Assembly: GCA_002731275.1 (NCBI GenBank)
Contig: PCBK01000066.1
Location: forward strand, 1 to 59,510
From: Deltaproteobacteria bacterium
GTDB taxonomy: Bacteria > Myxococcota_C > UBA6777
DNA: 59,510 nt
Direction: 5' to 3'
The translations under genes were made by a program, and so were the position numbers. The notes below the pieces were generated by a model. That model was not told the DNA's origin. It worked only from the letters and a program-made list of their open reading frames with translations, and made no database searches. This document shows, piece by piece, positions 1 through 59,404 of the stretch. Numbering within the stretch: the stretch's first letter is position 1; each line of letters starts with the position of its first letter.

Positions 1-258
1 CCCTCCTCTCGAAAGGGTTGAGAGGAGGGATGTCACGAAGTGACAGGGTGGTGAGTTTGTTGAGGCGGATGATTGCAAGTGAAGACGCAAAAAACCCACA
101 GCAAGCTCGAAAGCAAAAAGGAATCCAAGGATATGGCTTGCTATATCCGCCAGAAAGTGAGGGACGAAATGGTGGAATCAGGGGAGTTTGCGGAGACACG
201 AGTGCAACATCCACCGGAGCAGAAATCTAGAATCCCCCGTATATATCGGATGAATGGT
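1..258 (+). repeat. Structured repeat family, unit 1
   Basis: Starts with a hairpin at 1-29 (stem CCCTCCTCTC / GAGAGGAGGG, loop GAAAGGGTT), followed directly by a second hairpin at 31-45 (TGTCAC-GAA-GTGACA) and the conserved string GGTGGTGAGTTTGTTGAGG. A third inverted repeat lies near 130-146 (ATATGGC / GCTATAT, one G-T wobble). The unit ends with GTGCAACATCCACCGGA and a tail reading CCGTATATATCGGATGAAT. Short ORFs across it do not match the other copies and are not counted as genes. Confidence 0.75.
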
Positions 259-441
259 CCCTCCTCTCGAAAGGATTGAGAGGAGGGAAGAGCCGGAGGC
301 TCAGGGTGGTGAGTTTGTTGAGGCGTATGTTGCAAAGCGCACGAAGCAAATCAGCCCGACGAGGGCGCTTGCTTTGGGCGCAAGTGCAACGTCCGCCGGA
401 TCAGATTTATAGCTAAACCCCGTACATATCGGTTGGTTGGT
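259..441 (+). repeat. Structured repeat family, unit 2
   Basis: Same architecture as unit 1: first hairpin at 259-287, then a second hairpin at 290-302 whose stem is GAGCC-GGA-GGCTC instead of TGTCAC/GTGACA, so both arms changed together. The middle differs from unit 1 and has its own hairpins (GCCC-GACGA-GGGC and GCGCTTG / CAAGTGC). The 3' part GTGCAACGTCCGCCGGATCA and the tail CCGTACATATCGG are conserved. Confidence 0.75.
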
Positions 442-695
442 CCCTCCTCTCGAAAGGGTTGAGAGGAGGGAAGAGCCGAAGGCTCAGGGTGGTGAGTTTG
501 TTGAGGTGGATGATTGCAAGTGAAGACGCAAAAAACCCACTGAAAGCTTGCAAGTAACCGAGCTTACCAAGGATGTCGCCTGCGACATACGCCTGAAAGT
601 GGGGGATGATATAGGATGGTCAGGGGAGTTTGCGGAGACACAAGTGCAACATCCACCGGATCAAATATCTAGAATCCCTCGCATCTACCGTGTTT
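442..695 (+). repeat. Structured repeat family, unit 3
   Basis: First hairpin at 442-470, second at 473-485 (GAGCC-GAA-GGCTC). The middle resembles unit 1 (GATTGCAAGTGAAGACGCA), but its inverted repeat is now ATGTCGC / GCGACAT in place of ATATGGC / GCTATAT, again with compensatory change. It ends with the same TCCACCGGATC block immediately before the stop codon of the minus-strand aminotransferase, so it may also supply that gene's transcript end. Confidence 0.72.
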
Positions 696-700
696 TTCAA

Positions 701-1726
701 TCAATCAAAAACGATCTCTTTGGTCCAGCCATAGGGATCTTCTTTGACGCCGAATTGGATGTCTGTGAGCGCTTTGTAGAGTTTGGTGCAGTGTGGTCCT
801 GGTTGTCCATCTGCGAGATAGGTGATGGTCTCCTGTCCCCAAGTGATGCTCTCAACTGGTGTGATGACTGCGGCTGTTCCACAAGCGCCTGTCTCGACAA
901 ACTGGAACAACTCATCGACATGGACAGGGCGTTGTTCGATGGTGTAGCCGAGGTCTTTGGCGAGTGTCCGCAAGGAGTCGTTGGTGATCGATTTGAGGAT
1001 CGACTCAGATTGTGGGGTGACATATTTGTTGTCTTTGGTGATGCCAAAGAAGTTTGCGGCCCCAAGTTCATCGATGTATGACTTGGTCGCGTCGAGGTAG
1101 AGGGCTTCACCGTATCCATTGCTGCGTGCTTTGACGGTGGCTCTCATCCCTGCGGCGTAGTTTCCACCTGCCTTGGCTGTGCCGACACCACCGGGAGCTG
1201 CGCGGACGAGTTGGTCTTCAACGATGAGCTTGGTGGGGGTGAAGCCATTTTTGAAGTAGGGGCCAACAGGTGTGGCGAGGACGAGGAAGAGATATTCATC
1301 AGCAGGGGCGACACCAATACGTGCACCTGTACCAAGCAGAAGTGGGCGGATGTAAAGTGCTGCGCCTGTGCCGTAAGGAGGGATGAAGCGACGATTGGCC
1401 TTGACGACCCGCTCGACGGCTTCGACGAAGATTTCGACGGAAGGGGCCTGCATACTCAGTTGTCGGGCTGAGTGCTGCATTCTACGCGCATTGTCCTCTA
1501 CTCGGAAGGACAATGTCCTACCATCTTGTGTCTCGTAGATCTTGAGGCCTTCAAAAGCAGCCTGTCCGTAGTGCAAACAGGACGCCGCGATATGAAGTGG
1601 CAGTTGTTCAGAGTCGGTCTCGATCCCTTGGTCCCATTCGCCATTTCTCCATGTATACCGCACATTCATATCTGTCTTTTGGTATCCAAAGGGCAGTGAT
1701 GCGTAGTCCAATTGAGCTTTATCCAT
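701..1726 (-). CDS. ilvE: Branched-chain amino acid aminotransferase
   Basis: PLP-dependent fold-IV transaminase that interconverts Leu, Ile and Val with their 2-oxo acids in the cytoplasm. The sequence shows the class-defining block GVGTAKAGGNYAAGM with the predicted Schiff-base Lys185, plus GALYIRP-like and ELGAANFFG segments. The length of 341 residues fits the BCAT type II (eukaryote-like) group. I chose the ATG at 1726 because AGGAGG lies four bases upstream; a TTG five codons earlier would put that ribosome site inside the gene. It is divergent from a MocR-type regulator with shared palindromes between them, so it is a likely regulatory target. The stop lies next to the repeat array. 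Confidence 0.93.
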   Translation of the reverse strand: MDKAQLDYASLPFGYQKTDMNVRYTWRNGEWDQGIETDSEQLPLHIAASCLHYGQAAFEGLKIYETQDGRTLSFRVEDNARRMQHSARQLSMQAPSVEIFVEAVERVVKANRRFIPPYGTGAALYIRPLLLGTGARIGVAPADEYLFLVLATPVGPYFKNGFTPTKLIVEDQLVRAAPGGVGTAKAGGNYAAGMRATVKARSNGYGEALYLDATKSYIDELGAANFFGITKDNKYVTPQSESILKSITNDSLRTLAKDLGYTIEQRPVHVDELFQFVETGACGTAAVITPVESITWGQETITYLADGQPGPHCTKLYKALTDIQFGVKEDPYGWTKEIVFD

Positions 1727-1828
1727 GGTTCCTCCTGGCAAAAGAATGTTGACGAAAGATATTCTTTTCAGACCTCTGTGTCGTTGTGAGGGGAGGAATG
1801 AAAGATGAACATCTTGACTTTTTCCTGT

Positions 1829-3539: not shown

Positions 3540-5414
3540 ATGAAGTTCCATCATCTTCTCAGCGGGGCTTGCCTTCGGGCGGGGTGTCGCGTTTCTCTCT
3601 TTGTGCTCACGTTGTGTGTCGGCTTGTGGGGGATTTCCTCCGTAGATGCCGCGACAAAGTGTCAGGACGCACCCAAAGGTATGGTCTGTGTGAATGGTGG
3701 CAGTGTCACCCTCGGCAGTGACAAAGGTGCACGGAACGAGCGTGCTGCACACAGTGCCAACGTCGAGACATTTTATCTCGATCGTACTGAGGTGAGCGCG
3801 AAAGAATACGCTGCCTGTATCAAAGCCGGCCATTGTTACGATTTGTACAAAGTGACGATTCCAGCTTCAGCGCGACGTGGTGCCCGAGCTGTCACACACG
3901 TTAACTGGTTTGAAGCGGCTTCCTACTGTCGTTGGCGTGGCAAGAGATTGCCTACAGAGGCTGAGTGGGAGTACGCAGCACGTGGGATCAACAAGGCCGA
4001 TTACGGATGGGGACCTGAGAAACCCACCTGTAAGCTCGCACATTATCGGGGCTGTCGTCCTCGTCGACCACAAGCCACAGACAAAGGCAACCCCGCTGGT
4101 TTTGGTTTGTTCCACATGGCAGGCAACGTCTCTGAGTGGGTACAAGATTGGTACGCGCCTTGTTATAGCGGTTGCAAAAAAGCTTGCGGTGCTGGCTGTA
4201 AAGGAGCATCTCCCAAAGGTCCATGTAAAGGCAAAACAGACTGCCCCACAAGACGTATGAAGGTCGCCAAGGGTGGTGCTTGGAATCTTCGACGTGTTGC
4301 GCTGAAAGCCTCGACACGCAAAGGCTGGCCGTTGTCCTATCGCAGCGCCTCCATTGGGTTTCGTTGTGCATCTTCAACGCCGACGCTCACGCCTCCTGGA
4401 GACAAACCACTCCAACTCAACAAACGTCCCGCGCCCAAAGCCCCTACCAAACCCCTCTCTGCCGAACAATTAAAGATCTTCAAAGGATTTCCTGTTGACG
4501 ATCTCAAGCTCAAAAAACTTTGCCCCACCAAGTATCGTTCAGGCTCCAACTGTCGCGATCCTGCGCACTACGTTAAATCCAACGAGAAGCGCCTGAAACT
4601 CTTTCGACCCTACCTGCTCAATGTCGGTGGCGGATACATCGGGATTGGTGCCGATCAAAACTACAACTTCATCGCATGGGCGCGCTCCAAGATCGTGTGG
4701 TTGATGGATTACGACATGGTGATCTATTGGATTCACAAGATGCACCGTGGCCTGATCCTCAACGCTGCCAACAACAAAGAGTACCTCGCGTTTTGGGACA
4801 AAAAGAACAAAAAGCGCGCGATCGCCATTCTGCAAAAAGTCTACGATGGTGACAAAGACAAGAAGATGATCCTTCGAGCATATCGACGTTATATTGGTGT
4901 CCTCGGGCGGTACTTCCGCATGGAGTGGAACCACAAAGACAAGGCCGCGCGTGATCACTGGTTGGTCAACGATGACAATTACCAACATATGCGAAAGCTT
5001 TATCAGCTCAACCGTATCCACGCGATCCCTGGTGATTTGCTTAAAAAGAACAGCTTGCTCGGTGCGACAAAGGCTGCTAAGAAGCTCGGTGTGACCGTTC
5101 GCGCGTTCTACTTTTCCAACGCCGAAGAGTACTGGAATTATCCCAAAACATTCCGTGAGGCGATGAAGATCGTGCCGATGGACAAACGGACTGTTGTTGT
5201 CCGGACGTTGTCTTCTCGCCGTTGGATGACCAAACGCCACAGTTATTTCCACTACAGTGTGCAGGGTGGGTTGTCGTTTAAAAAGATGTTGCAAGCACGC
5301 ATCTACAAGGGGTACTTTGGATTCCAGTACCCCAGCGTGCGACAGATGATGGAACGCCATCGGGTCAATACACCCTACGGCGGATTTACAACCATCGGGC
5401 TCCCCACACGTTAA
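3540..5414 (+). CDS. Secreted SUMF1-domain protein with C-terminal LIC_10091-like domain
   Basis: A signal peptide (about 1-38, cleavage near VDAAT) is followed by a SUMF1/FGE-sulfatase domain (about 48-285) with VSAKEYAACIKAGHC, RLPTEAEWEYAARG, GFGLFHMAGNVSEWVQD, KGGAW and IGFRCASS. The segment after GGAW lacks the catalytic Cys pair of true formylglycine-generating enzymes, so it is probably not an FGE. A proline-rich linker leads to a domain (about 310-620) with VGGGYIGIGADQNYNF followed by WLMDYD. This resembles, from memory, the LIC_10091 group with a methyltransferase-like fold (inference). An AGGAG ribosome site precedes the ATG. The extra Cys-rich loop with CYSGCKKACGAGCKG is unusual. 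Confidence 0.75.
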   Translation: MKFHHLLSGACLRAGCRVSLFVLTLCVGLWGISSVDAATKCQDAPKGMVCVNGGSVTLGSDKGARNERAAHSANVETFYLDRTEVSAKEYAACIKAGHCYDLYKVTIPASARRGARAVTHVNWFEAASYCRWRGKRLPTEAEWEYAARGINKADYGWGPEKPTCKLAHYRGCRPRRPQATDKGNPAGFGLFHMAGNVSEWVQDWYAPCYSGCKKACGAGCKGASPKGPCKGKTDCPTRRMKVAKGGAWNLRRVALKASTRKGWPLSYRSASIGFRCASSTPTLTPPGDKPLQLNKRPAPKAPTKPLSAEQLKIFKGFPVDDLKLKKLCPTKYRSGSNCRDPAHYVKSNEKRLKLFRPYLLNVGGGYIGIGADQNYNFIAWARSKIVWLMDYDMVIYWIHKMHRGLILNAANNKEYLAFWDKKNKKRAIAILQKVYDGDKDKKMILRAYRRYIGVLGRYFRMEWNHKDKAARDHWLVNDDNYQHMRKLYQLNRIHAIPGDLLKKNSLLGATKAAKKLGVTVRAFYFSNAEEYWNYPKTFREAMKIVPMDKRTVVVRTLSSRRWMTKRHSYFHYSVQGGLSFKKMLQARIYKGYFGFQYPSVRQMMERHRVNTPYGGFTTIGLPTR

Positions 5415-59168: not shown

Positions 59169-59404
59169 GCCGGCATATGCGGGGTTTTGCTAGAAATCTG
59201 ATCCGGCAGACGTTGCACCAGCGCAGCGCGCTGGACCGCATTTGAACCCCTTCGGGGTTGGGGCTTTACCACTGACAGAGCCCTTCTCGGAGAGGCTTCT
59301 CTTCGTGGCTGATTTGCTTCGTACGCTTTGCAACATATGCCTCGACAAACTCACCACCCTGTCACTTCGTGACATCCCTCCTCTCAAGTCTTTCGAGAGG
59401 AGGG
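59169..59404 (-). repeat. Structured repeat family, unit 4 (inverted)
   Basis: Read on the minus strand: first hairpin at 59376-59404 (same 10-base stem, loop GAAAGACTT), second hairpin at 59360-59374 (TGTCAC-GAA-GTGACA), then GGTGGTGAGTTTGTCGAGG. The middle differs from the other units and has its own hairpins (AACCCC / GGGGTT; CCAGCGC-GCT-GCGCTGG). The unit ends GTGCAACGTCTGCCGGATCA and TTTCTAGCAAAACCCCGCATATGCCGG. Confidence 0.72.

Follow-up and report, generated by a model that had tools for sequence, protein, structure and literature searches.

Ordered arrays of a modular, hairpin-rich intergenic repeat near gene 3′ ends in a deltaproteobacterial genome

The BOX elements of Streptococcus pneumoniae follow a modular boxA-boxB(n)-boxC design, and integron attC sites are folded elements located behind stop codons. 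Two studies (PMC2817692, PMC3733652) describe REPs as units of 20-40 bp whose orientation alternates regularly in BIMEs. Cozzuto et al. (PMC2267715) described stem-loop-containing sequence families that share a predicted secondary structure and are mostly intergenic, which defines a class and not a homologous family. The repeat presented here fits that class, as its copies are repeated, intergenic and share a predicted fold.

We studied it in a window of 59,510 nucleotides, the whole stretch of DNA analysed, which is contig C55 of a 10.75 Mb draft genome in 200 contigs. Positions 1-695 hold three direct units that start at 1, 259 and 442, in agreement with the three direct copies reported in a preliminary description of this sequence. 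The three copies are not all alike, however, since the middle one belongs to a different, shorter type (S) and units 1 and 3 to type L. Hairpin 1 begins exactly at the contig end (base 1), where the left array is cut off. The features of the window are the following:

1-218, plus strand: unit 1, type L, with hairpins 1-3, a GNRA loop and stem A; left-truncated by the contig end
1-29, plus strand: hairpin 1 of unit 1, CCCTCCTCTC loop GAGAGGAGGG; identical at 259-287 and 442-470
32-44, plus strand: hairpin 2 of unit 1, GTCAC-GAA-GTGAC
64-77 with 203-215, plus strand: stem A of unit 1, its 3′ arm lying within the 3′ core
109-112, plus strand: GNRA loop of unit 1, GAAA, with closing pair C108-G113
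129-148, plus strand: hairpin 3 of unit 1, GGATATGGC-TT-GCTATATCC
219-258, plus strand: linker K with a CCCCCGTATATATCGG-like motif; more linkers at 401-441 and 661-695
259-400, plus strand: unit 2, type S, with hairpins 1 and 2 and stems A and B; covariance-model match of 177.5 bits
290-302 and 473-485, plus strand: hairpin 2 of units 2 and 3, GAGCC-GGA/GAA-GGCTC
322-334 with 385-397, plus strand: stem A of unit 2
337-349 with 369-381, plus strand: stem B of the S unit
442-660, plus strand: unit 3, type L
505-518 with 645-657, plus strand: stem A of unit 3
550-553, plus strand: GNRA loop of unit 3, GCAA
571-590, plus strand: hairpin 3 of unit 3, the alternative allele GGATGTCGC-CT-GCGACATAC
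701-1741, minus strand: gene adjoining the T end of the array, with its stop directly after the array
59202-59404, minus strand: unit of type M, located at the contig's right end and following the stop of a plus-strand gene

The arms of hairpin 2 change together as the preliminary description had claimed (GTCAC/GTGAC in unit 1, GAGCC/GGCTC in units 2 and 3), and the compensatory changes that it reported for hairpin 3 of units 1 and 3 were confirmed (129-148 versus 571-590), as was the retention of the 3′ block GTGCAAC..CCGGA, which is kept in all three units. To these elements we add stem A, which pairs over a longer distance (64-77 with 203-215 in unit 1). Hairpin 1 had been considered fixed; this applies to the three copies of the window but not to the genome as a whole, where other arms occur and 4 of 98 copies have an inverted loop. 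A protein search with the gene neighbouring the left array, presumably a branched-chain aminotransferase, found relatives 70-74% identical from several lineages, and no array was present at this gene in the single relative inspected there (L126). The M unit at the right end (59202-59404) was anchored in the same way as the array on the left.

Units have a size of about 140-220 nt, lie in direct orientation and follow the order hairpin 1, hairpin 2, linker GGGTGGTGAGTTTGTTGAGG, the body with its closing stem A, 3′ core and spacer K. According to column counts, the bases preceding hairpin 1 are AATGGT-like, and hairpin 1 itself is replaced in some units by an alternative one, such as CCCCTTTTTCTCC with GGAGAGAAAGGGG. 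There are three body types, S, M and L, whose linker-to-core lengths are ~74, 121-137 and 149-152 nt, respectively, together with an S subtype in which the inner hairpin has a different sequence.

Copy numbers were based on pattern, BLAST and model searches of the draft genome. A search for the 3′ core TGCAACRTCYGCCGGA that tolerated at most two mismatches gave 278 genome matches versus 16 for the reversed control, which corresponds to ~260 copies, and the units form roughly a hundred arrays in this one bacterial genome, located directly after gene stop codons. BLAST with the left region listed 90 matches in the same genome, and the covariance-model search that the preliminary description had proposed, performed with a model of the S unit, returned at least 150. 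Counted by eye among these listed matches, some 35 contigs start near a unit. A DNA search of 97 other genomes, four of them from the same taxonomic family, did not find the repeat; a looser search of these four gave merely short, weak matches, and no matches to the units were found among phages and plasmids by DNA search. The sister genome G002 yielded two weak covariance-model matches (27-28 bits) that by eye have a similar layout, with a CCCCTCTC stem, TGCCCC-GAA-GGGGCA and then GGGGTGAGG. This sister genome also carries its own abundant palindromic repeat of ~115 nt, unrelated in sequence, with ~50 matching places in 380 kb (sampled contigs L226-L245). Our preferred reading, to which we assign a probability of roughly 60%, is that of an intergenic repeat confined to this genome, modular, rich in hairpins and comparable in kind to BIMEs and BOX elements, which would have spread as non-autonomous DNA and have a fold partly under selection.

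The covariation first noticed in the window extended to the genome-wide copies, well above shuffled and slid controls. In the alignments of 29 S units and 50 L units, 97.5% of cells were paired in each case, both-side changes amounted to 45 versus 16 in shuffles (S) and to 87 versus 33.5 (L), and when the partner was slid by 1-3 columns, 35-51% of cells still paired and 0-2 cells had changes on both sides; these control values are not probabilities, because the structures were derived from the same sequences and the copies are related. Five out of six variable structure pairs were among the top 30 column pairs in the S alignment, the exception being pair 82-120 (rank 129), and the L alignment also placed five out of six there, the exception being pair 67-217 (rank 57 overall and 30 among pairs at least 4 apart). 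Pairing of hairpin 2 is not strictly required, since 7-10% of its cells were unpaired.

Covariation in both alignments would suit structured noncoding RNAs, or antisense or 3′-end RNA segments, selected for their fold and transcribed from the array strand in the direction of the 3′ end of the gene. The loops argue in the same direction. Among 71 L copies, 68 had a C-GNRA-G type loop; each of the four bases occurred at N, and R was a purine in 71 out of 71. Such a loop is compatible with a folded RNA or, perhaps, with folded single-stranded DNA. Hairpin 2 carried a GNA triloop (GAA, GGA or GTA) in 117 of 121 cases and the hairpin of M units mostly did so too. Both the GNRA and the GNA loops are located on the array strand, whose consensus folding energy was lower than that of the complement for S, M and L, and the inner hairpin was kept in S and s bodies despite its different sequence. 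However, the GNRA-bearing strand is antisense to the gene that the array abuts, the units have no Rfam match and the asymmetry of one-sided changes was weak (18 G-U versus 11 A-C pair types, counted by hand). Template switching can also account for some of the paired changes. We consider structured RNAs of this kind possible but unlikely.

Template switching between hairpin arms is presented in two studies (PMC8794818, PMC8604942) as a mutational source of paired changes that acts without selection. Since it could match the arms in this way, compensatory change alone is no proof of RNA. The preliminary description had taken compensatory change as pointing to selection on structure; the covariation proved to be real, but template switching could yield paired changes as well. 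The four inverted hairpin-1 loops (L072, L082, L088 and L107) were inverted in place with intact flanks, which points to a footprint of template switching, and neighbouring hairpin-2 pairs changed together as blocks. Both observations agree with covariation made by replication template switching only, arm being copied onto arm with no structural selection. Distant pairs covaried too, however (67-136 in S and 67-217 in L), inverted hairpin-2 loops were found in 0 of 121 cases, and the GNRA constraint sits in a loop, where arm copying does not explain it, making template switching as the sole cause improbable. The paired hairpin changes are real; part of them may stem from copying errors by which hairpins are rewritten, and selection on RNA may not be their sole source. 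With ~260 folded copies in one genome, structural selection and template switching should be separable here, because both seem to mark the same hairpins.

Each array has 1-4 typed units, which tend to follow the order L...S...M. Order statistics were obtained from 54 arrays with at least two typed units, and they are indicative, as are the position figures, because the loci were selected for carrying units and the gene calls were simple and made by the authors: L was first in 43 of the 54 multi-unit arrays and underrepresented in final position (p = 1.2e-7), S was last in 19 of the 54, and M was last 19 out of 21 times in multi-unit arrays and elsewhere twice, while the T end was oriented toward a gene 3′ end in 45 of 62 arrays and in the opposite sense in 17 (p = 5e-4), with 39 of the 45 toward-arrays and none of the 17 opposite-sense arrays lying within 100 bp of the gene. 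The K end was far from genes (median of 546 bp) and showed no clear direction preference (17/28). Unit identity was 85.4% within arrays versus 86.7% between arrays and, not being higher within them, argues against a recent origin of the units by duplication in place. In several arrays (L109, L084, L108 and L107), the sequence beyond the K end holds another family of hairpin repeats, CCCCCTCAG..CAGCTCCCCCT..AAGGGGAGCGATGCA, and likewise a GTAGGGTCGGGCCTTGTGTCCGACCT palindrome. Diverged inverted units are found beyond some arrays, as in L107 (contig C49, ~4415-5000), where they begin right after the stop of the opposite gene, and also on contigs C87 and C121.

The preferred order and the stop-codon anchor point to an insertion preference or to a role in the 3′ end, and so tight a restriction of position and order could mean that the arrays work in gene 3′ ends and are not a parasite that is tolerated there. 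A dedicated, ordered gene-3′-end system, in which an antisense multi-domain RNA of the form L(n)-S-M or a folded single strand would act on many genes of one organism, has little probability in our judgement.

Returning to the reading of a tolerated, genome-restricted repeat, the units would have spread as non-autonomous DNA, either by a recombinase or by ectopic gene conversion. As the genome yielded no transposase or recombinase associated with the units, this mobility is an inference. Arrays would be tolerated behind stop codons, and their hairpins would be kept partly by selection on folding, as RNA or as single-stranded DNA, and partly by template switching that rematches the arms. Stability or termination at mRNA 3′ ends would plausibly be affected as a by-product.

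A coding origin was rejected. Open frames occur in the unit bodies, and entropy values for part of L at first hinted at codon phasing, but six-frame synonymous tests on S and L gave a best p of 0.065, entropy-by-phase permutation over the whole unit gave p values of 0.34 and 0.42, and stops and frame shifts occur among the copies. No codon phase stood out in spacer K, and a Pfam search of the units returned nothing of note.

The preliminary description had named no described family with this layout, and none emerged from the comparisons: Rfam scores remained below threshold, the hallmarks of REP/RAYT and attC were missing, and phages and plasmids gave no match. Integron attC sites, considered because hairpins lie behind stop codons and the genome has an integrase, were rejected because none of 202 strands, taken from S, M and L units, carried the RYYYAAC...GTTRRRY pair. 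The genome encodes one full-length integron integrase (450 bits; L270, G000:C77, 4737-5681, minus strand), and its contig of 9.3 kb, which leaves distant cassettes out of reach, contained no hairpin-1, linker or 3′-core motifs. A REP/RAYT system was also rejected, as the four PF01797 matches appeared IS605-like when their loci were read, with a TnpB-like neighbour and no flanking units; one PF01797 gene and a unit are ~1.3 kb apart, separated by another gene. The IS605-like Y1 transposase genes (L031-L034; G000: C11, C23, C42 and C114) are unlinked to units. The GTAG/CGTC tag at the foot of the palindrome was absent before hairpin 1, CGTC occurring solely inside stem A, and the alternating orientation of REP/BIME was not seen, given that arrays are direct, with some diverged inverted units beyond them. 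Regarding Rfam, the window produced 0 matches at the gathering threshold and the best sub-threshold scores were far below it. One of these aligned hairpins 1 and 2 to the Whalefall-1 RNA (RF01762, PMC2864571), which shares two adjacent stem-loops followed by a CAGGGTG-like sequence, with 14.0 bits versus a gathering score of 37. The match was not seen in the units of L091, and the likeness is a resemblance only.

The closest counterparts are found among modular repeats. Like REPs and BIMEs, the family is intergenic, hairpin-based and present in high copy, with composite mosaics within one genome; unlike them, its units measure about 140-220 nt and are direct. The restriction of position and order seen here is tighter than any known to us for BIMEs. 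BOX elements share the combination of module types in an order, a comparison that concerns modular design alone, and to our knowledge their sequence and structure differ from those of the present units. The combination of the L...S...M order with an anchor at gene 3′ ends is unusual for bacterial repeats.
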